A stretch of 34,169 nt of DNA from an uncultured Shimia sp. (GTDB lineage Bacteria > Pseudomonadota > Alphaproteobacteria > Rhodobacterales > Rhodobacteraceae): the NCBI RefSeq assembly GCF_913054185.1, contig NZ_CAJXIV010000036.1, positions 1 through 34,169 of the forward strand, given 5' to 3'. Numbering within the stretch: the first letter of the stretch is position 1; each line of letters starts with the position of its first letter. The position numbers were made by a program, and so were the translations under genes. The notes under the pieces are model-generated. The model was not told the DNA's origin. It saw only the letters and a program-made list of their open reading frames with translations, and ran no database searches. Positions 5,099-19,085 of the stretch are shown here, in pieces.

Positions 5099-5136
5099 CT
5101 AGTTTGATCCTCAAATTAATTTGAGGCACAAATTAA
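5099..5136 (+). promoter_or_regulatory. Tandem XylR (ROK) operators upstream of xylBA
   Basis: Site 2 (5116-5136) is a perfect 21-bp operator: TTAATTTG, five bases, CAAATTAA. Site 1 (5099-5119) is CTAGTTTG, five bases, CAAATTAA, with six of eight left-arm bases matching. The sites share the four bases at 5116-5119, so their centres are 17 bp apart. The junction also forms a perfect 18-bp palindrome at 5109-5126 (CCTCAAATTAATTTGAGG). A further CAAATT half-site lies at 5093. The same motif precedes xylF. Assignment to the ROK repressor XylR is inferred from context and from the A/T-flanked TTTG/CAAA form of ROK operators. Confidence 0.8.
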
Positions 5137-5162: not shown

Positions 5163-6617
5163 ATGTTTGTGGGAATTGATCTCGGCACGTCTGGAGTACG
5201 TGCCCTGCTGATTGACGCGTCCCAACGTGTGATTGGCGCAAAAGAAGCCGCTGTGGACACGGCCCGTCCGCACACCGGTTGGAGTGAACAGCTGCAATCC
5301 AATTGGATCACCGCCACCAAAGCGGTCTTTGCTGAACTGAAAGCCGATCACCCCGCCGAAGTTTCCGCCATCCAAGGCATTGGCGTGTCCGGCCATATGC
5401 ATGGCGCCAACCTGCTCGACAATAATGGCACCCCATTGCGCCCCTGCATGATGTGGAATGACACCCGCTCCGCCACGCAAGCCGCCAAGCTCGACGTCAC
5501 TGACCAAGTACGTGACCTCTCTGGCAACATTGTCTTCCCAGGCTTCACCGCTCCCAAAGTGGCTTGGGTTGCTGAGAATGAACCAGACACTTTTGCCAAA
5601 ACTGCCAGAATCTTGCTGCCCAAAGACTTTCTGAACTTTTGGCTCACTGGCGTCTACGCCTCCGACATGTCCGATTCCGCCGGCACCAGCTGGCTCGACG
5701 TCGGCGCACGCGACTGGTCCGAAACGCTGCTCACCGCCTCCGGCATGCGCCGCGATCAGATGCCCGACCTGTTTGAGGGATCTGAGGCCATTGGCACCGT
5801 GCGCGATGACATCGCAGCCGAACTGGGCCTGCCCAAAGGCGTGATTGTCGCCGCAGGTGCAGGAGACAACGCCGCCGCCGCTTGCGGCATTGGCGCGCTG
5901 AACGAGGGCGACGGATTTGTCTCTCTAGGCACTTCCGGCGTACTGCTTACTGGCCGTGGCGCCTACGCGCCCAAGCCAGAAAGTGCAGTGCACACCTTTT
6001 GCCATGCGATCCCGAACCGCTGGTATCAGATGGGGGTGATCCTTGCAGCCACCGACAGCCTCAACTGGCTCTCGCGCAATCTACAAGAGACGCCGGCCAA
6101 CTTGACCAAACTCCTGGGCGACAGCATCAACGGCCCCGGCACCATGCGCTTCTTGCCCTACCTATCGGGCGAGCGCACCCCGCACAATGACGCCACCATG
6201 CGCGGCGCTTTCTTGAACATCGACATAGACGCGGGCCACGCCGCCCTCACCCAAGCGGTGCTGGAGGGTGTCAGCTTTGCCCTGCGCGACAACCTCGAAG
6301 CGTTAAAATCCACCGGTGCGCAACTCGAGAGCCTCATCGCCATCGGCGGTGGCAGCCAGTCGCCCTATTGGGTCGAGCTCATCGCCACGCTGCTTGATCT
6401 GCCAATCTCCCTGCCCAAAGCAGGCGAATTTGGCGCAGCCCTCGGCGCCGCCCGCTTGGCGATCTGCGCTGCCACCAACACCGATCCTGAGGCCGTCATG
6501 ACCCGGCCCGAGATCGCCACAATCGTTTCCCCCCGCAGTGATCTGCGCGACGCATACAAGGACGCTTATGCGAACTTCGTCACTCTGTACCCCGGCATAA
6601 AGGCCCTGACACAATGA
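5163..6617 (+). CDS. xylB: Xylulokinase XylB
   Basis: 484 residues, FGGY kinase family; phosphorylates D-xylulose to xylulose 5-phosphate in the cytoplasm. The N-terminal phosphate loop is [28 protein letters not shown] (74-86) matches the xylulose-binding GQMHG region of E. coli XylB. Asp235 in GAGDNAAAA is the likely catalytic base (Asp233 in E. coli). [15 protein letters not shown] is the second FGGY signature. A strong ribosome site (GAGGAG) lies eight bases before the ATG. The stop overlaps the xylA start (ATGA), so the pair is translationally coupled. The upstream tandem operators suggest xylose induction by relief of XylR repression. Confidence 0.96.
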
Positions 6618-7918
6618 CCGATTTCTTCAAAAACATCGCCCCCGCCCAATATGAAGGGCCGGACAGCACCAACCCGATGGCCTTCCACCACTACAACCCC
6701 GATGAGGTTGTCATGAGCAAACGCATGGAAGACCACCTGCGCTTTGCCGTCGCTTATTGGCACAGCTTTGCCTGGGAAGGCGGTGACCCGTTTGGCGGTC
6801 AAACCTTTGAGCGCCCGTGGCACCCACAGACCCGCATGGACATGGCCAAAGTGAAGGCTGACGCCGCATTCGAGATGTTCGACATCCTCGGCCAACCCTA
6901 TTTCTGCTGGCACGATGCGGACATCCGCCCCGAAGGTGACAGCTTTGCTGAAAGCTTGAAGAACTTCGAAGAGATGATTGAATACTTTGAAGAAAAAATG
7001 AGCACCCGCCAAATCAAACTGCTCTGGGGCACCGCCAATATGTTCAGCCACCGTCGCTGGATGTCGGGCGCCTCCACCAATCCTGATCCGGAGGTCTTTG
7101 CCTACTCCGCCGCCACAGTAAAAACTTGCATGGACGCCACCATGAAGCTGGACGGCGAGAACTACGTGCTCTGGGGGGGGCGCGAAGGTTACGAGACTTT
7201 GCTCAATACCGACATGGGCCGCGAGCTGGATAACATGGGTCGATTCCTCCACATGGTGGTGGATTACAAACACAAAATTGGCTTCAAAGGCAGCATCTTG
7301 GTTGAGCCCAAGCCACAGGAGCCGTCCAAGCACCAATATGATTTTGACGCCGCCACCTGCTATGGTTTCTTAAAAAAGTACGGCTTGGAAAACGAGGTCA
7401 AACTCAACCTCGAGCAAGGCCACGCCGTTCTCGCCGGGCACAGCTTTGAACATGAGATCGCCACGGCTACGGCGCTTGGCGTGCTCGGCTCCATCGACAT
7501 GAACCGCAACGATTATCAGTCCGGATGGGACACCGACCAGTTCCCCAACTCCGTGCCAGAAGTGGCGCTGGCCTACTACCACATCCTCAAAGACGGTGGC
7601 CTCAAAACCGGCGGCACCAATTTTGACGCCAAACTGCGCCGCCAATCGCTTGATGCCAAAGACCTGATCGCCGCCCACATCGGTGGCATGGATGTTTGCG
7701 CCCGAGGTTTGAAGGCCGCCGCCGCCATGATCGAGGACGGGGGCCTTGAGGATGCCCTTTCTGAGCGCTACGCCGGTTGGGACACCGACGCAGCCAAAGC
7801 CATGCTGGCTGGCGGTCTGGACGGCACTTTTGAGGACGTGATGAGCGGTAAGATCAACCCGGCGCCCAAATCCGGCCGTCAGGAGATTTTGGAAAACTAC
7901 GTGAACCGCTTTGTGTAA
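6614..7918 (+). CDS. xylA: Xylose isomerase XylA
   Basis: 434 residues, class II xylose isomerase; interconverts D-xylose and D-xylulose using two divalent metals. HDADIRPEG contains the catalytic His100 and Asp103 (His101/Asp104 in E. coli). [12 protein letters not shown] (53-65), the [16 protein letters not shown] metal site and [19 protein letters not shown] near residue 290 are diagnostic. Length is normal for the class. Its presence shows that this organism uses the isomerase route of xylose breakdown. It starts within the xylB stop codon. A terminator follows 39 bp after the stop. Confidence 0.97.
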
Positions 7919-7957: not shown

Positions 7958-7994
7958 GCCCTTCGCGCATATTCTCCTGCGCGGAGGGCTTTTC
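7958..7994 (+). terminator. Terminator after xylBA
   Basis: GCCCTTCGCGC (7958-7968) pairs with GCGCGGAGGGC (7979-7989), one G-U pair, followed by TTTTTC. It ends only 17 bp before the ATG of the peroxidase gene at 8012, so that gene either depends on readthrough or has a promoter overlapping the hairpin. Confidence 0.8.
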
Positions 7995-8011: not shown

Positions 8012-9322
8012 ATGCGCCCTTTGATGCTCACAGCCGCTTTCCTGCCTGCAATTGCCAGCGCCTCGCCGCTGCCCAAGGCGGACGCCATTTTCCCGGCGCA
8101 AGATGTGACAGAAGTCGAGCTGGGTTGGCAGCTGTTTTACGATCCCATCCTGTCCGGCAACCGCACCGTTGCTTGCGCCACCTGTCATCACCCGGACTTG
8201 GGCACCTCCGACGGCGTCTCTTTGGGCCTTGGTGATGGGGCGAAGGGCCTCGGTTTGGAGCGAAAAATTGACGCCACCAACCCACCGGAAAAACGCATCC
8301 CCCGCAACGCCCCGGCCCTATGGAACCTCGGCGCCACCGAATTCACCGTTTTCTTCCACGATGGCCGTCTGGAAGACGACCCCACCCGCCCCTCCGGCAT
8401 CCGCACCCCTTTGGGCGGCGAGATGGAGACGGGTTTTGACAACGCCCTCGCCGCCCAAGCCATGTTCCCCGTGCTCTCAGGTGACGAGATGGCCGGACAC
8501 TACTCTGAGAATGACGTCAGCCAAGCGGTGCGCCTAGGTCAGCTCACCGGCCCCGGCGGCGCTTGGGACATCCTTGCAAAACGCATAGAATCCATCCCCG
8601 CCTATCGCACAGCCTTCGACAACGTCATCGGCACAGAGGAACCGATCAAATTCCACCACATCGCCAACGCGCTTGCTGCCTTCATCACTTTCGAATGGCG
8701 CGCCGACACCTCGGCCTTTGACGCCTACCTGCGCGATGGCACACCCCTCGAACAAAATGCGGCCGCCGGCATGGATCTCTTCTATGGCAAAGCTAAATGC
8801 GGCAACTGCCATTCTGGCCAATTCCAGACCGACCACGGTTTTCACGCCATCGCGCTCCCGCAAATTGGCCCCGGCAAAGCTGCCCCCTTTGAGCGCCACA
8901 ACCGCGACGTTGGCCGAGGCCGCGTCACCGGCCACGAGGAAGACTTCTACCGCTTTCGCACGCCAAGCCTGCGCAACATCACACAGACCGGTCCATATGG
9001 GCACAACGGCGCCTACACCTCGCTTGAATCTATGGTGCGTCACCACCTCGACCCGGTAGGTTCTCTTCGTGCCTATGTTGAAGCCAACGCCACCTACTCA
9101 GACGGGGAATTTAATACTGATTTCAAATTGATGCGCGACGATCCTGAAGTGATAGAAATCGCCGCATCCAATGAGCTTCCCCCAATTGATCTCACCGATT
9201 TGGAGGTCGCGCAAATCCTCGGTTTCCTCGAAAGTCTTACGGATTATGACGCCATCCAGGGCCGCCTCGGCGTGCCAGAAAGCGTGCCCTCCGGCCTGCC
9301 TGTGGATCAACTTTCCAACTGA
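8012..9322 (+). CDS. Periplasmic di-heme cytochrome c peroxidase / MauG-MbnH-like protein
   Basis: 436 residues with a signal peptide (MRPLMLTAAFLPAIASA). Two c-type heme sites are present: CATCH (Cys55-Cys58-His59) and CGNCH (Cys263-Cys266-His267). The framework ELGWQLFYDPILSGN, IPRNAPALWNLG, FFHDGRLED and RTPSLRNITQTGPYGHNG is that of the CcpA/MauG/MbnH superfamily, whose members reduce peroxide or oxidise residues of a partner protein. Which activity applies cannot be told from sequence. I chose the ATG at 8012 because it gives a clean signal peptide; an upstream TTG at 7940 lies before the terminator hairpin. It follows xylA and converges with the CRTAC1-like gene, with only 13 bp between their stops. 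Confidence 0.88.
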   Translation: MRPLMLTAAFLPAIASASPLPKADAIFPAQDVTEVELGWQLFYDPILSGNRTVACATCHHPDLGTSDGVSLGLGDGAKGLGLERKIDATNPPEKRIPRNAPALWNLGATEFTVFFHDGRLEDDPTRPSGIRTPLGGEMETGFDNALAAQAMFPVLSGDEMAGHYSENDVSQAVRLGQLTGPGGAWDILAKRIESIPAYRTAFDNVIGTEEPIKFHHIANALAAFITFEWRADTSAFDAYLRDGTPLEQNAAAGMDLFYGKAKCGNCHSGQFQTDHGFHAIALPQIGPGKAAPFERHNRDVGRGRVTGHEEDFYRFRTPSLRNITQTGPYGHNGAYTSLESMVRHHLDPVGSLRAYVEANATYSDGEFNTDFKLMRDDPEVIEIAASNELPPIDLTDLEVAQILGFLESLTDYDAIQGRLGVPESVPSGLPVDQLSN

Positions 9323-9335
9323 TCTCTGCCATACC

Positions 9336-10877
9336 TCAATACTCTGACAACACGGTCACCGGGCCTTCTGACCACACCCGCCAACTGCCGTTCACCGGCA
9401 CTTCGATCCAATCACCCAGCGAGCCATCCGGCCACTTGATCCGCACCTCAACGAGCTCGGCCTCGCCCAGCCCAAAATACTGCGGCGCGGACATACCACC
9501 GGCATGACCACCTCCTACGGTGATCTCTCGCCAATACACCCGCTCACCAACCCTCACCTCAATGAACGCGCCCACGGCCTGACTGTTGGCATCCTTGCCC
9601 ATCAGTGTCAGCGCCACCCAATTGCCGGTTCCCTCGCTGACGTTTTGGTAGACTTCCATTGGCGCGCGCCGGTTTACCACCGTCAGGTCAAGCAACCCAT
9701 CGTGGTTCAAATCCACCAACGCCGCCCCACGGCTGCGCGCCAATGTGGCAATCCCCGCCACGTCCCCCTGCTCGACAAACGTGCCGTCCTCCTGCTGCAT
9801 CAACAGATTGTTGGGATCTTCCATCGCCGCGCCAGGCATCTGCTGCACGTTGCCCTTGGATATGAACACATCGTCCAGCCCGTCGTTGTCCACATCACCA
9901 AAACTGATGTGCCAACCGGTTGAGGGCCGCCCGTCGCCACCGGTGTAGGGCCGATGCGCCGAGGTGCCCATCTCGTATGGCACGTCCTCAAACGTCGGGG
10001 CCTCTGCGCTGACACGTTTCATCAACCGCTGATCCCCCATCGACGACAAAAACACTTCACTCTTGCCATCAAAATCCAGATCGCGCTGTGCAATGCCCAT
10101 ACCCCACAGCATATGTGTGGCCCAACCGTCCTTTTCGCCATAAAGCCGCGGCGTGTCTTCCATCGCCCAAAGCTGCTCCGCTCCACCTTTCACATAGTAG
10201 TGCCGATCGTTGCTCATCCGCAGATCAGCTTGTCCCAAACGGCCCCAGTCAGAAAACAGGATCGACAGCGGGCAGAACCCCGGCGTCAACGTGCTTTTGA
10301 CGTAGCCAGCACCTTCTGGCCGGAACAGATCATTGTCGTCACAGGCCTCAAACGGCCCCTCGGGATCGTCGCGGTCCACATAATTGCCAAACGCCAAAGT
10401 TGGCGGCGCATCCTGCCGCTCCCACGTGGCCGAAAACGCCGTGGTCCAGCCATCGCCCCGGTCAAAGCCTGGCACCTCCATCGGCTCAAAACTGCACTCT
10501 GCACCGCCCTTCAGCAGCAAGTTTTCACCAACCCGCAAGACCACCAGGTCCAGCCAGCCGTCGCCATCAATATCGAGTGGATAAAATCCCGTGGTGCCGG
10601 GCACCATCAACGCGTCCGGCGTTCCTTCCTCAAGCGCAATCGCCCCGCGATGAAGACTCCGATTGCGCAACAACACCGGCGGGTTTTCCCCACCCGCCGC
10701 CACCAGTTCCGGCAGCCCGTCGCCGTTGCAATCAAACGCTGCGACACCGCCGCCAACATAAAACTCCCAACCGCCGTCATAAACGTGCTCAACCACCTCC
10801 ACCGGCGCAAAGCGCACCTCCGCCTGCGCGGTACCAACCGCCGCAATCATCAGTGCGGTGAAACCGCTAAGCCGCAT
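9336..10877 (-). CDS. Secreted FG-GAP/VCBS repeat protein with ASPIC-UnbV domain (CRTAC1 family)
   Basis: 513 residues with a signal peptide (MRLSGFTALMIAAVGTAQA). At least five calcium-binding-type repeats follow the D-x-[DN]-x-D-G pattern: DCNGDGLPEL (49-58), DIDGDGWLDL, DFDGKSEVFL, DVDNDGLDDV and DLNHDGLLDL. They predict an integrin-alpha-like beta-propeller. The C-terminus (FGLGEAELVEVRIKWPDG) matches the ASPIC/UnbV domain. Function is unknown; an extracytoplasmic binding or partner role is inferred. The start at 10877 gives the signal peptide directly and overlaps the last 11 bp of xylR, so it is probably co-transcribed with the regulator. A longer frame reaching 10925 would add 16 residues inside xylR. 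It converges with the di-heme peroxidase. Confidence 0.83.
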   Translation of the reverse strand: MRLSGFTALMIAAVGTAQAEVRFAPVEVVEHVYDGGWEFYVGGGVAAFDCNGDGLPELVAAGGENPPVLLRNRSLHRGAIALEEGTPDALMVPGTTGFYPLDIDGDGWLDLVVLRVGENLLLKGGAECSFEPMEVPGFDRGDGWTTAFSATWERQDAPPTLAFGNYVDRDDPEGPFEACDDNDLFRPEGAGYVKSTLTPGFCPLSILFSDWGRLGQADLRMSNDRHYYVKGGAEQLWAMEDTPRLYGEKDGWATHMLWGMGIAQRDLDFDGKSEVFLSSMGDQRLMKRVSAEAPTFEDVPYEMGTSAHRPYTGGDGRPSTGWHISFGDVDNDGLDDVFISKGNVQQMPGAAMEDPNNLLMQQEDGTFVEQGDVAGIATLARSRGAALVDLNHDGLLDLTVVNRRAPMEVYQNVSEGTGNWVALTLMGKDANSQAVGAFIEVRVGERVYWREITVGGGHAGGMSAPQYFGLGEAELVEVRIKWPDGSLGDWIEVPVNGSWRVWSEGPVTVLSEY

Positions 10878-12060
10878 TGTCTGCCAACTCCACAAGTGCG
10901 TTTTCAGATACGTTTTCAAGTGCATAGGCCGCTGCGCCGCGTGCCCACATCAGGTTGCCCCATTTGTGCACCACAACCTCAGGCGGGGCTTTGTCGACCT
11001 GCACAATCAGCTTGCGCATGCCTTCAATGACCTCCTCCGCATAGAGATGACTGGCCTGCATTTGCTCGCCCGCCAAAATAATCAGTTCCGGATCAAAAAT
11101 GTTCACGATATTGGCCAAGCCCATGGCAAACATGCGCCCCGCCCGCGTCACAATCGACGCCGCAACTGCGTCGCCATTTTTCGCAGTGCGCAAAATGTCT
11201 TCTACCTGACGCTCCGCAGCTTCCCCGCTGGCCTGCATCGCTTCGCGCGTCAGCGCATAATCCGCCACATAAGCTTCAAGACAGCCCCGCTGACCACAGC
11301 GACACAATGCGCCCTCCAGCTGCACTTTGGTGTGTCCAAATTCAGCGCCACAGCCCCGCGTGCCGCGGTAAATCTCATCATTGATCACAATGCCCATGCC
11401 AACGCCGCTCTCGATGGTCACAACGATAAAATCATTGTGCCCTTGCCCAAGACCAAAGCTCTTCTCCGCCATGGCAACAAGGTTGGCGTCATTGTCCAAA
11501 AACACCGGAATGCCCAGCACCTGCTCCAGAACGTCACCAAACTGCACGTTGCGACTTGTCAGCGACGGCGACCAATGCACAAACCCGCGCGGCGCATCGA
11601 CAACTCCGGCAATCCCAAGACCAAACCCCGCCACATCCTGGCGCGACAGGCCAACTTTCTGGGCCAGTGTTTCCACCAAACCCGCCAGAACCTGCGCCAT
11701 CTCAGCAGCCGGCAAAACTGCTGTTTCAAGGTCCGCCTCATGATCCGCCAGTTGTACGCCTTCAAAATCAAGCAGCACCAACGACACCGTTTTGTTGGAA
11801 ATCTTCGCCCCTGCGATTAAGCGTGCGGCGCCGCGAATCTTTAGGTCCACCTTAGGTCGACCCCGCTTCGAATCTTTCGCCTCTGAGTCGCTGCTAACCT
11901 CTTCAATCAACCCTTCACGTAAAAGCTCCGCTGTGATTGTCGTCACGGTTGCGCGGCTGATTCCCGTCAGCTCGCTCAGAACAATACGTGGCACCCGTTG
12001 CTGCCTGCGAATTTCATTCAACAGCTTACGCCGCCCAAATTCTCTTTGATTCACAGACAT
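10867..12060 (-). CDS. xylR: ROK-family transcriptional regulator, XylR-like
   Basis: 397 residues. An N-terminal winged helix (about 8-60, RIVLSELTGISRATVTTITAELLREGLIEE) is fused to a ROK sugar-kinase-like domain. The ROK zinc site is intact: His242 in AEFGHTKV and Cys253, Cys255 and Cys260 in CRCGQRGCLE. Such proteins usually repress sugar genes and let go when sugar binds. It is divergent from xylF and flanked by the rest of the xylose genes, so D-xylose is the likely inducer. The operators at 5099-5136 and 12170-12190 are its likely targets, and the latter may also control xylR itself. It is unrelated to the AraC-type XylR of E. coli despite the shared name. Confidence 0.88.
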   Translation of the reverse strand: MSVNQREFGRRKLLNEIRRQQRVPRIVLSELTGISRATVTTITAELLREGLIEEVSSDSEAKDSKRGRPKVDLKIRGAARLIAGAKISNKTVSLVLLDFEGVQLADHEADLETAVLPAAEMAQVLAGLVETLAQKVGLSRQDVAGFGLGIAGVVDAPRGFVHWSPSLTSRNVQFGDVLEQVLGIPVFLDNDANLVAMAEKSFGLGQGHNDFIVVTIESGVGMGIVINDEIYRGTRGCGAEFGHTKVQLEGALCRCGQRGCLEAYVADYALTREAMQASGEAAERQVEDILRTAKNGDAVAASIVTRAGRMFAMGLANIVNIFDPELIILAGEQMQASHLYAEEVIEGMRKLIVQVDKAPPEVVVHKWGNLMWARGAAAYALENVSENALVELADNAA

Positions 12061-12169: not shown

Positions 12170-12190
12170 TTAATTTGATTTACAAATTTA
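12170..12190 (+). promoter_or_regulatory. XylR (ROK) operator upstream of xylFHG
   Basis: TTAATTTG (12170-12177), five bases, CAAATTTA (12183-12190). This is the operator seen before xylB with one changed base. A plausible promoter overlaps it: TTGATT at 12175-12180, 16 bp, TACGAT at 12197-12202. A repressor bound here would cover the -35 element. The site lies 77 bp before the xylF start and 110 bp before the xylR start. Confidence 0.78.
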
Positions 12191-12267
12191 TTACGCTACG
12201 ATTGAGACCACCAGTCACAGCCGACTCACTTCGGCCAAAGACTGGGACGAACATTTGGGAGGACACC

Positions 12268-13281
12268 ATGAAACTTTTTGCATCTGCGACGGCTGTTATC
12301 GCCGGCGCTATTATGAGCACCGCAGCATGGGCTGATGATCTGGTCATCGGCGTAAGCTGGTCCAACTTTCAGGAAGAGCGCTGGAAAACCGACGAAGCCG
12401 CGATCAAAGGCGCGCTGGACGCCGCTGGCGCCAAGTATATCTCTGCTGACGCGCAGAGCTCCTCTGCCAAGCAGCTTTCTGACATCGAAAGCCTGATCGC
12501 TCAGGGCGCCGATGCGCTGATCATTCTGGCACAAGACGCCTCTTCCGTGGGGCCAGCCGTTCAGGCTGCTGCCGATGAAGAGATTCCGGTGATTGCCTAC
12601 GACCGCCTGATCGAAGACAGCCGCGCGTTCTACCTGACTTTTGACAACGTCGAAGTGGGCCGCATGCAGGCGCGTGCCGTTCTGGAAGCCATGCCAAAAG
12701 GCAACTACGTGATGATCAAAGGCTCGCCCACCGATCCAAACGCGGACTTCCTGCGCGGTGGCCAGCAAGAGATCATTCAAGCCGCCATCGACAGCGGTGA
12801 CATCAAGATTGTCGGCGAAGCTTACACCGACGGCTGGGTGCCAGCCAACGCCCAGCGCAACATGGAACAAATCCTGACGGCTGCGGACAACAAAGTTGAC
12901 GCCGTGATCGCCTCCAATGACGGCACCGCCGGTGGTGTTGTAGCTGCGCTGACCGCACAGGGCATGGAAGGTATTCCAGTGTCTGGTCAAGACGGTGATC
13001 ACGCCGCGCTGAACCGTGTGGCGATGGGCACTCAGACTGTATCTGTCTGGAAAGACGCGCGTGCGCTCGGCACCGCAGCGGGTGAAATCGCTGTGGCTTT
13101 GGCGTCTGGCAACGCGGTGGACGGCTCTGCTGAATGGACGTCCCCTGCGGGCACCACGCTGAACTCCATGTTCTTGGCACCTGTGCCTGTGACAGCAGAC
13201 AACCTGAACACAGTTCTGGACGCTGGCTGGATCGAAAAAGACGTGCTCTGTGCTGGATCTTCCAACACAGCTTGTCAATAA
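12268..13281 (+). CDS. xylF: D-xylose ABC transporter substrate-binding protein XylF
   Basis: 337 residues, periplasmic binding protein of the CUT2/ribose type. The signal peptide is MKLFASATAVIAGAIMSTAAWA. The mature start DDLVIGVSWSNFQEERWKTDE is typical of XylF. QSSSAKQLSDIESLIAQGADALIILAQD, PVIAYDRLI and ASNDGTAGGVVAAL form the two-lobed sugar site. The ATG at 12268 has GGGAGGA seven bases upstream; an earlier in-frame ATG at 12142 lies upstream of the operator and would destroy the signal peptide. It is first in an operon with xylH, xylG and glk, and is followed by a strong intercistronic hairpin that probably keeps its transcript level above that of the permease. Confidence 0.95.
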   Translation: MKLFASATAVIAGAIMSTAAWADDLVIGVSWSNFQEERWKTDEAAIKGALDAAGAKYISADAQSSSAKQLSDIESLIAQGADALIILAQDASSVGPAVQAAADEEIPVIAYDRLIEDSRAFYLTFDNVEVGRMQARAVLEAMPKGNYVMIKGSPTDPNADFLRGGQQEIIQAAIDSGDIKIVGEAYTDGWVPANAQRNMEQILTAADNKVDAVIASNDGTAGGVVAALTAQGMEGIPVSGQDGDHAALNRVAMGTQTVSVWKDARALGTAAGEIAVALASGNAVDGSAEWTSPAGTTLNSMFLAPVPVTADNLNTVLDAGWIEKDVLCAGSSNTACQ

Positions 13282-13315: not shown

Positions 13316-13425
13316 CCCAATTTCCCCCACTCCCCTAAGATTTGACCACCTTTGACTGGCGCGGCCTCAACTGCGCAGACTGGAAAAGGTGTCTCAATCC
13401 GCGCGAACCAAAAAGGGACCGCACA

Positions 13426-14691
13426 ATGCAAAATCAAGCCAAAACTCTGATCAACAAGCTGGGGCTCGACCCGCGCCTGCTTGGCATGATCGGTGCGCTT
13501 GTGGTGATCTGGATCGTCTTTGGTGTGTTTACCGACGGCCGCTTCCTTTCACCCCGGAATTTCTTCAACGTCTCGGTTCAATCCGCCTCCGTTGCCGTGA
13601 TGGCAACAGGCATGGTCTTTGTGATCGTGACGCGCAACATTGACCTCTCTGTTGGTTCGCTTCTGGGCTTTATCGGCATGAGTGTGGCCGCACTACAGGT
13701 TCAGGTACTCCCCGACGTCTTGGGCCTCGGTCACTGGTCGATTTGGATCATCTCCGTCTTTGCCGCGATCCTGATGGGCGCTGCACTTGGTGCATTCCAG
13801 GGCTGGGTCATCGGTTACCTCACCGTGCCCGCGTTCATCGTGACCCTCGGCGGTTTCCTTGTCTATCGCGGTGCCATGTGGTGGGTCACCAAAGGCCAAA
13901 CCCAAGCCCCTCTGGACCCGACGTTCCGCCTCTTGGGCGGCGGTGCCGAAGGCACATTGGGCGAGACGCTCAGCTGGGCATTTGGCATCATTGCCGCATT
14001 GGTCGCAGTGGGCTTCATGCTGCTCAGCCGCCGCAACAAGGCCTCCCATGGTTTCTCCGTAAAACCCGCCTGGGCAGAAGGCATGCTTATGGCCATCGCT
14101 GCTGGCGGCATCCTGCTGTTTGTCTCGATCATGAACAGCTACCCCATTCCCAAAGGCGCGATGAAACGCATCACCAAGGCCCAAGGCATTGAATATACAG
14201 ACGGCATGGTTTGGAACCACGGTGTTGCCATTCCGGTTGTGATCCTGCTGGCGGTGGCCATCATCATGACCATCATCGCCCGCCGCACCCGTTTTGGCCG
14301 TTACGTCTACGCCACTGGCGGCAATCCAGAAGCGGCGGAACTCTCCGGCATCAATACCCGCTTTCTGACCGTGAAAATTTTCGCCCTGATGGGCGCTCTG
14401 ACCGGCATCGCTTCGATCATCGCCTCTGCCCGCCTCAACGCAGTGGACGTGGGGCTTGGCACGCTGGATGAGCTGCGCGTGATTGCTGCTGCTGTCATTG
14501 GCGGTACCGCTCTCTCCGGTGGCGCTGGCACCATCTACGGCGCGGTGATTGGTGCGCTGATCATGCAGTCGCTGCAATCTGGCATGGCCTCTGTTGGCGT
14601 CGACGCTCCGCTGCAAAACATCGTTGTCGGTGTGGTTCTGGTCTTCGCGGTCTGGGTCGACATCGTCTACCGCCGCCGCACAGGCGCGTAA
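13426..14691 (+). CDS. xylH: Xylose ABC transporter permease XylH
   Basis: 421 residues, inner-membrane permease of the CUT2 (ribose/xylose) family. Many hydrophobic segments are visible, starting [16 protein letters not shown]. The family motif [18 protein letters not shown] lies in the first third. The cytoplasmic coupling region [23 protein letters not shown] and the late [19 protein letters not shown] are characteristic. A longer middle loop (about residues 205-245) is typical of XylH relative to RbsC. The ATG at 13426 is preceded by AAAGGGA; an earlier in-frame ATG at 13342 lacks a ribosome site. It is 144 bp downstream of xylF and 11 bp before xylG. Confidence 0.94.
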
Positions 14692-14702
14692 GGAGTATCA
14701 TT

Positions 14703-15467
14703 ATGGACAAGCAAACCCCTCTCGTGGAAATGCGCGACATCCACATCTCCTTTGGTGGGATCAAAGCGGTGGACCATGTCTCCGTTGATCTGATGCCGGG
14801 CGAAGTGGTTGGCCTTCTGGGCCACAATGGCGCGGGCAAATCCACGCTGATCAAAATCCTCTCCGGCGCCTATCAGGGTGACGGCGGTGAGATCTACATC
14901 AACGGCGAAAAGGCCGAGATTCACAATCCCCGCGACGCGCGCAAGTACAACATCGAGACCATCTACCAGACCCTTGCGCTGGCCGATAACCTCGATGCCG
15001 CGTCCAACCTCTTCTTAGGCCGGGAACTCACCACCCCTTTGGGCACCGTGAACGACGATGCAATGGAGGCCGAAACCCGCAAGATCATGGGCAAGCTCAA
15101 CCCGAACTTTCAAAAGTTCGCGGAACCAGTCTCTGCCCTTTCGGGAGGTCAGCGCCAATCGGTGGCCATTGCCCGCGCGGTCTACTTTGACGCCAAGATC
15201 CTGATCATGGACGAACCCACCGCCGCACTAGGTCCACATGAGACCCAAATGGTCTCCGAGCTCATTCAACAGCTCAAGGCCCAGGGCATCGGCATTTTCC
15301 TGATCAGCCACGACATCCACGATGTCATGGAACTCTGTGATCGCGCCTCTGTGATGAAGAACGGCCAACTGGTTGGCACTGTGGATGTGAACGACGTCAC
15401 CGACGACGATTTGCTGAGCATGATCATCCTCGGCAAAAAGCCCGAAGGCGTATCTGTTCAAACCTGA
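14703..15467 (+). CDS. xylG: Xylose ABC transporter ATPase XylG, single-domain form
   Basis: 254 residues. Walker A is GHNGAGKST (40-48), the ABC signature is LSGGQ (146-150), Walker B is ILIMDEP (166-172) and the switch His is in LISHD. The E. coli XylG and RbsA proteins are about 500 residues with two fused ATPase domains; here there is one, so the active transporter must use a homodimer, as known for other short CUT2 ATPases of alphaproteobacteria. There is no second half in the adjoining sequence, and the C-terminus ([11 protein letters not shown]) looks natural rather than truncated. It powers uptake with XylF and XylH. Confidence 0.93.
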
Positions 15468-15521
15468 TTTAATTCGCTAGACGAACCAACGAATTGACTC
15501 GGAAGAAGAAAGTTGCGGTTT

Positions 15522-16445
15522 ATGACGTACTTAGTAGGTGACATCGGTGGCACAAACACACGCTTGGCTCTGGCGGATGCTTCAGGCGTGCGCATTGAAA
15601 GTGTGATGCGCGCCTCCAATGATGACTACAAAAGCTTTGACGCCGTGCTCGCAGCTTATCTTGCAAAAACCACCCCCGGCGACCTCGCCGGGGTGTGCAT
15701 CGCCATCGCCGGACCTGTGCATTCCGGCGAAGGTGAATTGACCAACCGCGACTGGTTCCTCAGTGTGGAAAACCTGCGCACCCAAACCGGCGCGCCCCAT
15801 GCGGAGTTGATCAATGATCTCTCGGCTCTGGGCTACGCGCTGGCCCGCATTTCCACCGATCCGGTCTGCGGCACCAAACACGAGCCGACCAATGGGCAAG
15901 CCTTGGTGGCAGGCATGGGCACCGGTTTCAACGTCAGCCCCACCCGCCGAAACGCACGAGGTGGTTTGACCGCCATGGAGGCTGAATTGGGGCACGCTGA
16001 GTTGCCTTACTCCGTGGGCAAACTGCTACGCGATGAATTGGGCGACGGCGCGGACATTTTTGTCACCTATGAAGACTGCTTCTGCGGGCGCGGCCTGGAA
16101 CGCCTGCATCAGGTGGTCAGCGGCCAACGCAAAGGCGGCAAAGAGATTGTCGACGGTTTTGCCAACGGCTGTACCGACGCCACGCGCACCGTACGCCTGT
16201 TTGCCCGCGCCTTAGGCCGCCTCACGCAAGCAATGATCCTGCAATATATGCCGCGTGACGGCGTGGCCTTTGCTGGCTCCGCCTCCAAAGGCGTGCTGAC
16301 TTCCGCTGCACTCCCTGACTTCATGACAGAGCTCACCCGCGACGCCCATGACATTGTCGATCCGGAAACCTTCCCGATCAGCCTTATCACCGATGACGCC
16401 GCCGCGCTTGCAGGCTGTGTGCAATATCTGGAACAGACGTCCTAA
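15522..16445 (+). CDS. glk: Glucokinase (Glk family)
   Basis: 307 residues from the ATG at 15522. LVGDIGGTNTRLALAD is the phosphate-binding loop. LINDLSALGYAL holds the catalytic Asp of bacterial glucokinases, and MEAELGHAELP follows the sugar-binding region. It phosphorylates glucose with ATP; the sugar preference is inferred from the family. A TTG three codons earlier (15513) is better spaced from GGAAGAAG at 15501-15508, so the true start may be that codon. It follows xylG by 54 bp with no clear terminator and is likely transcribed with xylFHG, which hints that the transporter also brings in glucose. It overlaps the end of the convergent LysR gene by four bases. Confidence 0.88.
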   Translation: MTYLVGDIGGTNTRLALADASGVRIESVMRASNDDYKSFDAVLAAYLAKTTPGDLAGVCIAIAGPVHSGEGELTNRDWFLSVENLRTQTGAPHAELINDLSALGYALARISTDPVCGTKHEPTNGQALVAGMGTGFNVSPTRRNARGGLTAMEAELGHAELPYSVGKLLRDELGDGADIFVTYEDCFCGRGLERLHQVVSGQRKGGKEIVDGFANGCTDATRTVRLFARALGRLTQAMILQYMPRDGVAFAGSASKGVLTSAALPDFMTELTRDAHDIVDPETFPISLITDDAAALAGCVQYLEQTS

Positions 16446-17407: not shown

Positions 17408-17507
17408 CCAATGTAAACCTGCGTTGCCACTTTACGGGACACAACTCTACTTTGCGGCAGGTTACAGGACCTGTTTAAAAAACGTGCAAGTATTAGGATG
17501 TGATTTC

Positions 17508-19085
17508 GTGTCAAAATTCCCTGCAATGATGGTGTCGTTGACGACAACCATCGCGGCTCTGGGCTTCGCCGCTCAAGGCGCTCTCGCCGAAACCGACCAA
17601 CCCAATATTCTGGTGATCATGGCTGATGACGTTGGTTGGGCCAGCCTCGGCAGCTATCACCAAGGTGTGAAAAGCATCGAGACCCCAAACCTCGATCAAC
17701 TCGCCGCCGAAGGTGCGCGTTTCACCGACTACTACGCCCAACCCAGCTGCACCGCAGGCCGCTCGGCCTTCATCACCGGGCAATTTCCGGTCCGCACCGG
17801 CATGCACACCGTTGGCCTGCCCGGCGATCCTGTGGGGCTAAACGAAAACGACCCAACTCTGGCCAACATGCTCAAAGGGCTGGGCTACACCACCGGCCAA
17901 TTTGGCAAAAATCACCTCGGCGACCTCAACCAATTCCTGCCCACCACCAAGGGCTTTGACGAATATTGGGGCTGGCTCTACCACCTCAATGCCATGGAAT
18001 ACACCACCGACCCGGACTGGCCGGATGATCCTGAATTCAACAACCAGTTTGGCCCACGCAACATCATTCACAGCTATGCCACCGACACCGTGGACGAGAC
18101 CGTTGATCCACGCTGGGGACTGGTGGGCAAACAACGCATCGAAGACGATGGCGAAGCCCCACCCGAACGTCAGAAAACCCTCGACAACGAAGTCACCACT
18201 CACACCCTGGACTTCATCGACCGCGCCGTGGACGCAGACACGCCTTTCTTTGTCTGGATGGCCCCTGCCCGCGCCCACGTCTGGACTCACCTGAGCCCGG
18301 AATATGAAGCTTTGCTCGGGGATGGGCGTGGGCTTCAAGACGTGGTCATGAAGGAACTGGACGACAACGTCGGCAAAGTGCTCGCGCATCTCGATGAACG
18401 CGGGATCAGCGACAACACCATCGTGTTGTTCACCTCTGACAACGGCCCGGAAACCATGACCTGGCCCGATGGCGGCACCACGCCCTTCCACGGCGAAAAA
18501 GGCACCACATGGGAAGGCGGATTCCGCGTGCCTGCTGTGGTGCGCTGGCCCGGCCAGATCGCCGAAGGTCAGGTGCTCAACGGTATCTTTGACGCCATGG
18601 ACTGGATGCCCACCTTGGTCTCTGCAGCTGGTGGCCCAGACGACCTGCCCGCCGCCATGCTGGAGGGCCATGACGGCTATCAAGTGCACTTAGACGGCTA
18701 CAACCAACTGTCTTATCTGCGTGGCGAAAGTGGCAGCAACCGTAAGGAAATCATCTATTACGAAGGCACCGACCTTCAGGCCGTACGCTACAAGGACTGG
18801 AAAGCCCACTTTGTGATCCAGGAAAAAGGCTGGGCCGGTCCCAAGGAAGACCTCAACGCCCCGCTGCTCTTCAACCTACGGCGCGATCCGTATGAGAAAG
18901 CGGCTGAGGAATCCGGCATGTACACCCGCTGGATGGGCAACAAGATGTGGGCCTTTGGACCGGCAGCCCGTCTGGTACAAAAGCACCTGACCACCTTTGC
19001 AGACTTCCCGCCACGCGGCAAAGCCGTCGGCAACGAGGAGCACGTCAAAGAACAGGTCGCAAGCGAAGGTGGCATGTCCCAGTAG
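17508..19085 (+). CDS. Secreted sulfatase (arylsulfatase family), second copy
   Basis: 525 residues from the GTG at 17508. This start is preceded by AGGA nine bases upstream and gives a signal peptide ending AAQGALA; an in-frame ATG at 17424 would add 28 residues and bury it. The metal strand is NILVIMADDVGWASLG (Asp40-Asp41). The formylglycine motif is C-T-A-G-R (Cys81-Arg85), fitting C-x-[PA]-x-R. FTSDNGPETMTWPDGG contains further metal ligands, and HGEKGTTWEGGFRVPAVVRWPG is the conserved central block. The substrate is unknown. It differs clearly from the sulfatase at 445-1887 and is not a recent duplicate. It is divergent from a LysR gene that probably controls it, and ends at a terminator. 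Confidence 0.9.
   Translation: MSKFPAMMVSLTTTIAALGFAAQGALAETDQPNILVIMADDVGWASLGSYHQGVKSIETPNLDQLAAEGARFTDYYAQPSCTAGRSAFITGQFPVRTGMHTVGLPGDPVGLNENDPTLANMLKGLGYTTGQFGKNHLGDLNQFLPTTKGFDEYWGWLYHLNAMEYTTDPDWPDDPEFNNQFGPRNIIHSYATDTVDETVDPRWGLVGKQRIEDDGEAPPERQKTLDNEVTTHTLDFIDRAVDADTPFFVWMAPARAHVWTHLSPEYEALLGDGRGLQDVVMKELDDNVGKVLAHLDERGISDNTIVLFTSDNGPETMTWPDGGTTPFHGEKGTTWEGGFRVPAVVRWPGQIAEGQVLNGIFDAMDWMPTLVSAAGGPDDLPAAMLEGHDGYQVHLDGYNQLSYLRGESGSNRKEIIYYEGTDLQAVRYKDWKAHFVIQEKGWAGPKEDLNAPLLFNLRRDPYEKAAEESGMYTRWMGNKMWAFGPAARLVQKHLTTFADFPPRGKAVGNEEHVKEQVASEGGMSQ

Follow-up and report, generated by a model that had tools for sequence, protein, structure and literature searches.

In marine Roseobacter-type bacteria of the family Rhodobacteraceae, a gene for a di-heme c-type protein and a convergent gene for a CRTAC1-type beta-propeller protein are tied to a locus for xylose uptake and use, and in one branch the di-heme gene is replaced by a gene resembling those of vanadium-dependent haloperoxidases. 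Our analysis set out from a stretch of 34,169 nucleotides from an uncultured Shimia sp. (contig NZ_CAJXIV010000036.1 of assembly GCF_913054185.1; 4.04 Mb, 176 contigs), referred to here as the window, which carries xylB, xylA, the di-heme gene, the CRTAC1 gene, a ROK regulator gene (xylR), xylF, genes for an ATP-binding cassette (ABC) permease and ATPase, and a glucokinase-like gene. The di-heme gene (forward strand) and the CRTAC1 gene (reverse strand) are placed between xylBA and xylR-xylFHG. CRTAC1 is the constant part of the arrangement and the peroxide enzyme is the exchangeable part. The pair and the replacement of its peroxidase together point to a peroxide-dependent step tied to sugar use, and our tentative interpretation, which may well be right, is that the two proteins form an exported, H2O2-using module attached to a locus for the uptake and use of aldoses (xylose, and probably also glucose).

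The gene pair and its sugar locus

A sequence-only reading of the window had placed two open reading frames (ORFs), one for a di-heme c-type protein and a convergent one for an FG-GAP/ASPIC-UnbV protein overlapping xylR, between the xylose catabolic and transport blocks, and Pfam and NCBIfam scores bear this out. The di-heme protein has two CXXCH motifs and matches CCP_MauG (PF03150) with 118 bits (gathering score 25.6), CRTAC1 matches FG-GAP_3 (74.9 bits) and UnbV_ASPIC (44.9 bits), and XylB, XylA and XylF score above their NCBIfam cut-offs (532 vs 380, 666 vs 533 and 460 vs 390 bits). The ATG of the di-heme gene at 8012 opens a stretch that by eye resembles a signal peptide, as does the beginning of CRTAC1, for which a second in-frame ATG lies at 10925. 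Counted from its ATG at 10877, CRTAC1 shares 11 bases with the end of xylR (10867), and the two genes are therefore probably co-transcribed. The di-heme and CRTAC1 genes end 13 bases apart (9322/9336). A terminator-like hairpin separates xylA from the di-heme gene, which lies downstream of it in the same orientation. The closest named relatives of the di-heme protein, at up to 90% identity, are from Shimia.

Conservation was surveyed in 295 genomes of the family, approximately one per genus. The CRTAC1 search (E 0.001) matched 162 of the 295 genomes and the di-heme search (E 1e-40) 173; the 150 listed matches of the former and the best 150 of the latter were used, and the counts of these two genes given below are among the matches listed. 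A di-heme gene was called close at 440 bits or more, a line picked after inspection of the match list, by which 125 genomes qualify, and xylA was scored by an XylA search at E 1e-100 (180/295 genomes). The two genes lie within 6 kb of each other in 104 genomes, with 101 of these pairs convergent, two divergent and one co-directional (median gap, 56 bp), which excludes a chance neighbourhood, and xylA is present in 103 of the 104. The genes do not occur independently either, since 117 of the 125 genomes with a close di-heme gene also carry CRTAC1. xylA was found in 116 of these 117 both-gene genomes vs 64 of the 178 others; Fisher p-values for such co-occurrence take no account of shared ancestry. 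Beyond the family both genes are uncommon: class-wide, with members of the family included, 12/289 and 10/289 genomes match the two genes (E 1e-60).

Among 80 pair loci examined (of 103 besides the window), the order of a forward di-heme gene, reverse CRTAC1 and xylR, and forward xylF, permease and ATPase genes was found in 72, and at least one xyl gene in 79, the exception being L112, which shows none. At a threshold of at least 40% identity, xylR, xylF, the permease and the ATPase each recur in 72 to 77 of the 80 loci, xylB in 69 and xylA in 66; an aldose epimerase gene is present in 16. Genes of the window that lie beyond this block, namely two sulfatases, CopA and LysR, were found again in 0 to 1 of the loci. 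The position of xylBA varies: xylB or xylA lies just 5' of the di-heme gene in 37/80 loci, and xylBA follows the ATPase gene in 29/80. Annotated plasmid-borne examples are found on large plasmids of Phaeobacter piscinae P13, Ruegeria conchae and P. inhibens DSM 17395. In the last of these, the plasmid is pPGA1_262, on which PGA1_RS18330 (cytochrome c peroxidase) and PGA1_RS18335 (CRTAC1) form the pair. The tie of the gene pair to the sugar locus is thus real, and the co-occurrence with xylR and xylFHG that the sequence-only reading had put forward as a check holds across the family.

Exchange of the peroxide enzyme beside CRTAC1

Among the matches listed, 46 CRTAC1 genes have no di-heme gene near them, and 20 of these loci were examined. 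In ten of the 20 (L148, L149, L150, L151, L153, L155-L158 and L160), a conserved gene for an exported protein lies directly upstream of CRTAC1 on the same strand, and a vanadium-haloperoxidase-like gene thereby takes the place of the di-heme gene. The encoded protein is PAP2-like, with the Pfam PAP2 model barely above its cut-off in one of two proteins scanned, and its best solved relative is the vanadium-dependent haloperoxidase 4cit (E 2.8e-67 over 387 residues), which we take to be the Zobellia iodoperoxidase. All 10 copies checked contain the vanadate motif K-RP-PSGH-SR-H. Like 4cit, the alternative partner is thus haloperoxidase-like by sequence, but it sits with CRTAC1 in xylose users, outside the window.

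The vanadium-type gene was searched for in 80 genomes: all 33 with CRTAC1 and no di-heme gene, 24 with both genes (from a random 33 of the 116 other both-gene genomes), and 23 of 33 with xylA only. It was found in 22 of the 33 genomes with CRTAC1 and without the di-heme gene (among the matches listed), directly upstream of CRTAC1 and on the same strand in 22/22, and all 22 genomes have xylA. It was found in none of the 24 sampled genomes with both pair genes, and in two of the 23 xylA-only genomes, both without CRTAC1 among the matches listed. A xyl block falls within the stretch in four of 12 vanadium-type loci examined (L151, L152, L155 and L157). In the CRTAC1 tree, the vanadium-partnered copies form one clade (support 98) among the di-heme-paired ones, together with the long-branched xyl copy L161, and a single exchange of the partner therefore suffices; the tree labels L152 and L159 as not vanadium-type, and their genomes carry that gene beside CRTAC1.

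The constant partner has the FG-GAP repeats, the UnbV_ASPIC domain and the propeller fold of the CRTAC1/ASPIC-UnbV family. The sequence-only reading had described it as rich in Trp and Asp, which is true to a modest degree only, as its 513 residues include 15 Trp (2.9%) and 42 Asp (8.2%). Its only solved sequence relative is Cartilage acidic protein 1 (9etn; 1.9e-26). The fold search of the CRTAC1 model (predicted local distance difference test (pLDDT), 84.0) likewise returned murine CRTAC1 first, followed by varied propellers, although identity in the fold alignment is approximately 20% and the known protein belongs to animals and to another context. A sugar enzyme, aldos-2-ulose dehydratase, was among the weak fold matches. 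No biochemical function of CRTAC1-type proteins, from bacteria to man, was found in the literature searched. Residues W53, W160, W274, W338, Y182, Y243, C66, C144, C195 and C218 are invariant, further conserved positions are H339, K357, N359 and Y244, and the conserved Trp, Tyr and Cys residues are retained with either partner, most of them in 10/10 of the vanadium-type copies. No Trp, Tyr or Cys of CRTAC1 differs between the partner groups, and a modification site special to the di-heme pairing was thus rejected. The residues that do differ are D196, H242, Q299, Q362 and R397, in a comparison based on 10 vanadium-type copies of one clade.

Placement of the di-heme protein

The di-heme protein belongs to the CCP_MauG superfamily by sequence, profile and fold (model pLDDT, 74.6), and the sequence-only reading had tentatively assigned it to the MauG/MbnH branch. 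Scores, the ligand column and tree placement do not support this assignment. The protein scores 118.6 bits with both the MauG model (TIGR03791; cut-off 443.85) and the MbnH model (TIGR04039; cut-off 362.85). At the column of MauG Tyr294, 79 of 80 paired relatives have His; of 48 other family copies, 47 have it as well and one shows a gap. The solved MauG variant 3orv (Y294H) aligns its His there. Among the references, this column is Met in classical CcpA, His in an Hxs-type member and Tyr in the methanobactin-locus copy of Methylocystis parvus; a short Sphingomonas protein outside the family also has His. A second di-heme CCP_MauG protein of the window genome (G000:C99:6683-7759) is of the Tyr-ligand type.

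The inter-heme residue, Trp93 in MauG (name and role according to the accessible text of PMC6405878), is replaced by His (H140) in 76/80 paired relatives. An Azospirillum reference also reads His at this column, which is alignment-dependent, MbnH showing His in one alignment and Trp in another. Classical CcpA identity, the other outcome considered in the sequence-only reading, was ruled out, as the ligand Met is replaced by His and the inter-heme Trp mostly by His. The residues of the peroxide pocket (Q173, P177 and E183), shared with CcpA, are invariant in 80/80 paired relatives.

The best NCBIfam model for the protein is TIGR03981 (His-Xaa-Ser-associated MauG-like), with 267.3 bits against a cut-off of 340. 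In a tree of 45 proteins, the family joined the Hxs-type protein (100/99, on a long branch) apart from 10 references, and separately from the MbnH and Tyr-type references; the tree has long branches, places an eleventh reference near the root and includes no MauG sequence. Profile matches to BthA, MauG, CcpA and MbnH ranged from E e-23 to e-37. By these comparisons, the di-heme protein is placed in a separate branch, nearest to the Hxs-associated MauG-like proteins. According to the accessible text of PMC6405878, a change from Tyr to His abolishes the bis-Fe(IV) feature in both MauG and BthA, and BthA Y463H retains peroxidase turnover. From the His ligand, the intact pocket and these published variants, we therefore predict a peroxidase-type enzyme with a bis-His heme 2, not a MauG, and a bis-Fe(IV) state should not be expected, judging from the ligand column.

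Predicted operators and control by sugar

A palindrome, TTAATTTG-N5-CAAATTAA, is common to 85/85 xylR-xylF gaps; this figure holds by construction, because the operator model was trained on those 85 gaps. The next-best sites in the window are independent of the training and lie before xylB (5116 and 5099) and, more weakly, before the glucokinase-like gene (15469). In the 1.55 Mb of the 80 pair loci, 121 strong sites were found vs none in 0.38 Mb of shuffled sequence. Where the di-heme gene lies behind xylB or xylA, an operator is present within 4 kb 5' of it in 32/38 loci; where it does not, in only 3/42, and an operator of its own for a di-heme gene away from xylB/xylA was rejected on the remaining 39. 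The sugar control suggested by the sequence-only reading is supported for the window, where predicted operators precede both units that contain the two genes. In nearly all loci CRTAC1 belongs to the xylR unit, and xylose control of the di-heme gene is confined to one arrangement. The extension of the module to glucose is in keeping with mutant tests in Ruegeria pomeroyi, in which the xylFGH transporter serves both glucose and xylose (accessible text of PMC10130141).

What the pair may do

In the module that we tentatively propose, the CRTAC1 propeller would be the constant, sugar-side component. Provided that both proteins are exported and meet outside the cytoplasm, the di-heme protein would bind H2O2 at heme 1, in its Gln/Pro/Glu pocket, and electrons would pass through heme 2, whose predicted bis-His ligation would leave no MauG-type bis-Fe(IV) state. 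In one family branch, the unrelated vanadium-haloperoxidase-like enzyme would do the same job. Our best guess is that CRTAC1 acts on, or holds, an aldose, while the peroxide enzyme either clears H2O2 arising there or provides an oxidation that keeps CRTAC1 active. Pairs of copper-radical oxidases and peroxidases exist in fungi, and a bolder version, which we regard as rather unlikely, would make the module their bacterial counterpart, placed under the xylose repressor: CRTAC1 would be an exported propeller enzyme for aldoses that depends on an H2O2-using oxidase to reach or maintain its working state, the slot of this oxidase having been filled twice, by a bis-His di-heme protein and by a relative of vanadium haloperoxidases.

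Several observations weigh against a module of this kind. The likeness of CRTAC1 to aldos-2-ulose dehydratase is at the fold level only, with a root-mean-square deviation of about 12-13. The vanadium-type gene was not found by the search in 11 of the 33 genomes with CRTAC1 and without the di-heme gene (among the matches listed), and neither partner was found, at the thresholds used, in five CRTAC1 genomes outside the family. Eight of the 125 genomes keep a close di-heme gene without CRTAC1 among the matches listed. In Shimia marina (L172, 7986-9335), the di-heme gene is retained in place and the xyl block and CRTAC1 are lost, and in S. abyssi (L171, 8046-9347), xylBA and the di-heme gene are present, but the stretch examined contains neither CRTAC1 nor xylFHG. 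Of the 180 xylA genomes, 64 lack one or both pair genes and 33 carry neither (among the matches listed), more distant di-heme copies adjoin transporters of the tripartite ATP-independent periplasmic (TRAP) type or trmFO, and the 39/42 loci without an operator mean that the di-heme gene is not generally under xylose control.

The sequence-only reading had suggested that CRTAC1 could be a partner protein modified by the di-heme enzyme. In a maturation of the MauG/MbnH type, Trp, Tyr or Cys residues of CRTAC1 would be oxidised by this enzyme through long-range electron transfer, which would make a protein-derived cofactor. The strict pairing, the membership in the CCP_MauG superfamily and the many invariant aromatic and Cys residues of CRTAC1 would suit such a role, and oxidations of other kinds would be compatible with a bis-His heme. 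However, His stands at the Tyr294 place, where the published Tyr-to-His variants lose bis-Fe(IV), and some genomes retain the di-heme gene without CRTAC1. Furthermore, the aromatic residues are equally kept with the vanadium-type partner, and therefore none is special to the di-heme pair. We consider this maturation doubtful.

Similarly doubtful is an explanation by separate functions under shared control, in which the di-heme protein would be a general periplasmic peroxidase acting against the H2O2 that arises when aldoses are oxidised rapidly. CRTAC1 would then have no connection with it and would bind sugar or sit at the cell surface, its gene sharing a transcript with xylR. Di-heme relatives do adjoin other catabolic and transport loci, and CRTAC1 is found beside xylR without a di-heme gene in L143-L147, L154 and Ruegeria sp. 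TM1040. Nevertheless, the convergent pair stays constant while xylBA lies before it in some loci and behind xylG in others, the substitute peroxide enzyme is also directly beside CRTAC1 in every genome in which both were found, and the two peroxide enzymes are mutually exclusive in the sample. Finally, the pair could be a long-standing neighbour that was passed on or transferred together with the xyl block and contributes nothing to sugar use. All genomes belong to one family and hence do not count as independent, the block moves as a unit, plasmids included, and a minority of xylA genomes lack both genes. However, retention of the pair in approximately 100 genera despite the rearrangements of xylBA, the lack of conservation of the other window flanking genes and the presence of one pair gene in each operator-controlled unit of the window make such hitch-hiking improbable.

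Relation to known systems

The single component families are known; the open-access literature searched appears to contain no account of the bis-His branch, of the pair at the sugar locus or of the exchange of peroxidases. No description of the di-heme/CRTAC1 pair was found there, a search that would not have reached a paywalled study of the Phaeobacter proteome on xylose, and no gene of the pair is named in the accessible portions of PMC9007349 or PMC10130141. To our knowledge, most CCP_MauG proteins beyond the classical groups have no known substrate.

With MauG, the di-heme protein shares the CCP_MauG fold, the two CXXCH motifs and the distal Gln/Pro/Glu, and MauG complexes are the best fold matches of its model; beyond the ligand and the score, it differs in having a CRTAC1-type propeller as partner, and mau genes were absent among the window neighbours checked (xyl, sulfatases, LysR and CopA-like; part of the window ORFs were scanned). 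MbnH resembles it as a di-heme enzyme encoded beside an exported partner, MbnP, and the MbnH structure 6e1c is its best solved relative by profile. However, the M. parvus copy has Tyr at the ligand column (we read this copy as MbnH by its position between MbnP and mbnA; its record names it MbnM), and the window pair has an FG-GAP/UnbV_ASPIC neighbour and no adjacent MbnP. The TIGR03981 group shares the tree placement and, in one above-cut-off member (L246), the His ligand, but its member keeps the inter-heme Trp, the window protein falls below the cut-off, and Hxs genes are absent among the named window neighbours. The gamma part of hydrazine synthase is likewise a CCP-like di-heme protein, its second heme being bis-His and the inter-heme Trp being replaced by His, and a CRTAC1-family gene occurs in some clusters of non-anammox hydrazine synthase homologues with a CCP-like gamma part (accessible text of PMC12758564). 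A relation was rejected, as the likeness is limited to two columns, the match is weak (5c2v_C, E 8.4e-7), and the pair has no alpha or beta genes beside it and stands in another locus.

A pair that approximately 100 genera keep at one sugar locus, and whose peroxide enzyme has been exchanged in nature, offers a testable setting for both protein families, and the tractable strain P. inhibens DSM 17395 is among its carriers. If our interpretation is true, current pathway maps lack an exported redox step at the locus through which an abundant marine group handles xylose and glucose.

Window features and other settings of the genes

Table 1. Positions of the pair, the sugar locus and the predicted control elements in the window
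Feature	Coordinates	Strand	Remarks
Two overlapping predicted XylR operators 5' of xylB-xylA-diheme	5099..5136	.	second and third best in window
xylB, xylulokinase	5163..6617	+	NCBIfam
xylA, xylose isomerase	6614..7918	+	NCBIfam
Terminator-like hairpin, gap between xylA and di-heme gene	7972..7988	+	8 such hairpins in region vs 4.9 +/- 2.1 in shuffles
Di-heme CCP_MauG-superfamily protein, predicted exported	8012..9322	+	ORF open from TTG 7940
First heme motif, CATCH	8174..8188	+	residues 79-83, numbered from 7940
His140, inter-heme Trp place	8357..8359	+	by alignment; His in 76/80 paired relatives
Second heme motif, CGNCH	8798..8812	+	residues 287-291
His369, MauG Tyr294 place; predicted bis-His second heme	9044..9046	+	His in 79/80 paired relatives
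CRTAC1-type beta-propeller, predicted exported	9336..10877	-	FG-GAP_3, UnbV_ASPIC
xylR-like ROK regulator	10867..12060	-	adjoins CRTAC1 in 73/80 loci examined
Palindrome, predicted XylR operator	12170..12190	.	best-scoring site in window
xylF, substrate-binding protein	12265..13281	+	ORF open from 12142; start inferred
ABC permease, xylH position	13342..14691	+	ORF open from TTG 13342
ABC ATPase, xylG position	14703..15467	+	NCBIfam scan
Weak predicted operator 5' of glucokinase-like gene	15469..15489	.	operator model scan
Glucokinase-like protein	15513..16445	+	Pfam scan

Two sulfatase genes (445-1887 and 17424-19085) lie one on each side of the sugar locus. In Ruegeria sp. TM1040 (L258, 9553-10536), CRTAC1 and xylR are kept, and the convergent neighbour is a calcium/sodium antiporter gene, with no di-heme gene. 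Relatives of the di-heme protein at 42-48% identity are encoded near or behind TRAP transporter genes in L226, L227, L234, L240, L241, L242, L243, L244 and L253. The last of these (di-heme gene at 8956-10239) also contains genes for a flavin-dependent oxidoreductase, an aldo/keto reductase and a flavin reductase, a set that we take to resemble that for sulfoquinovose. A trmFO-like gene (protein start only) lies beside di-heme relatives in L215, L217, L220, L221, L224, L229 and L232. In two metagenome genomes (L195, 1924-3243; L205, 7722-9041), the neighbours of the di-heme gene presumably resemble genes of the beta-hydroxyaspartate cycle.

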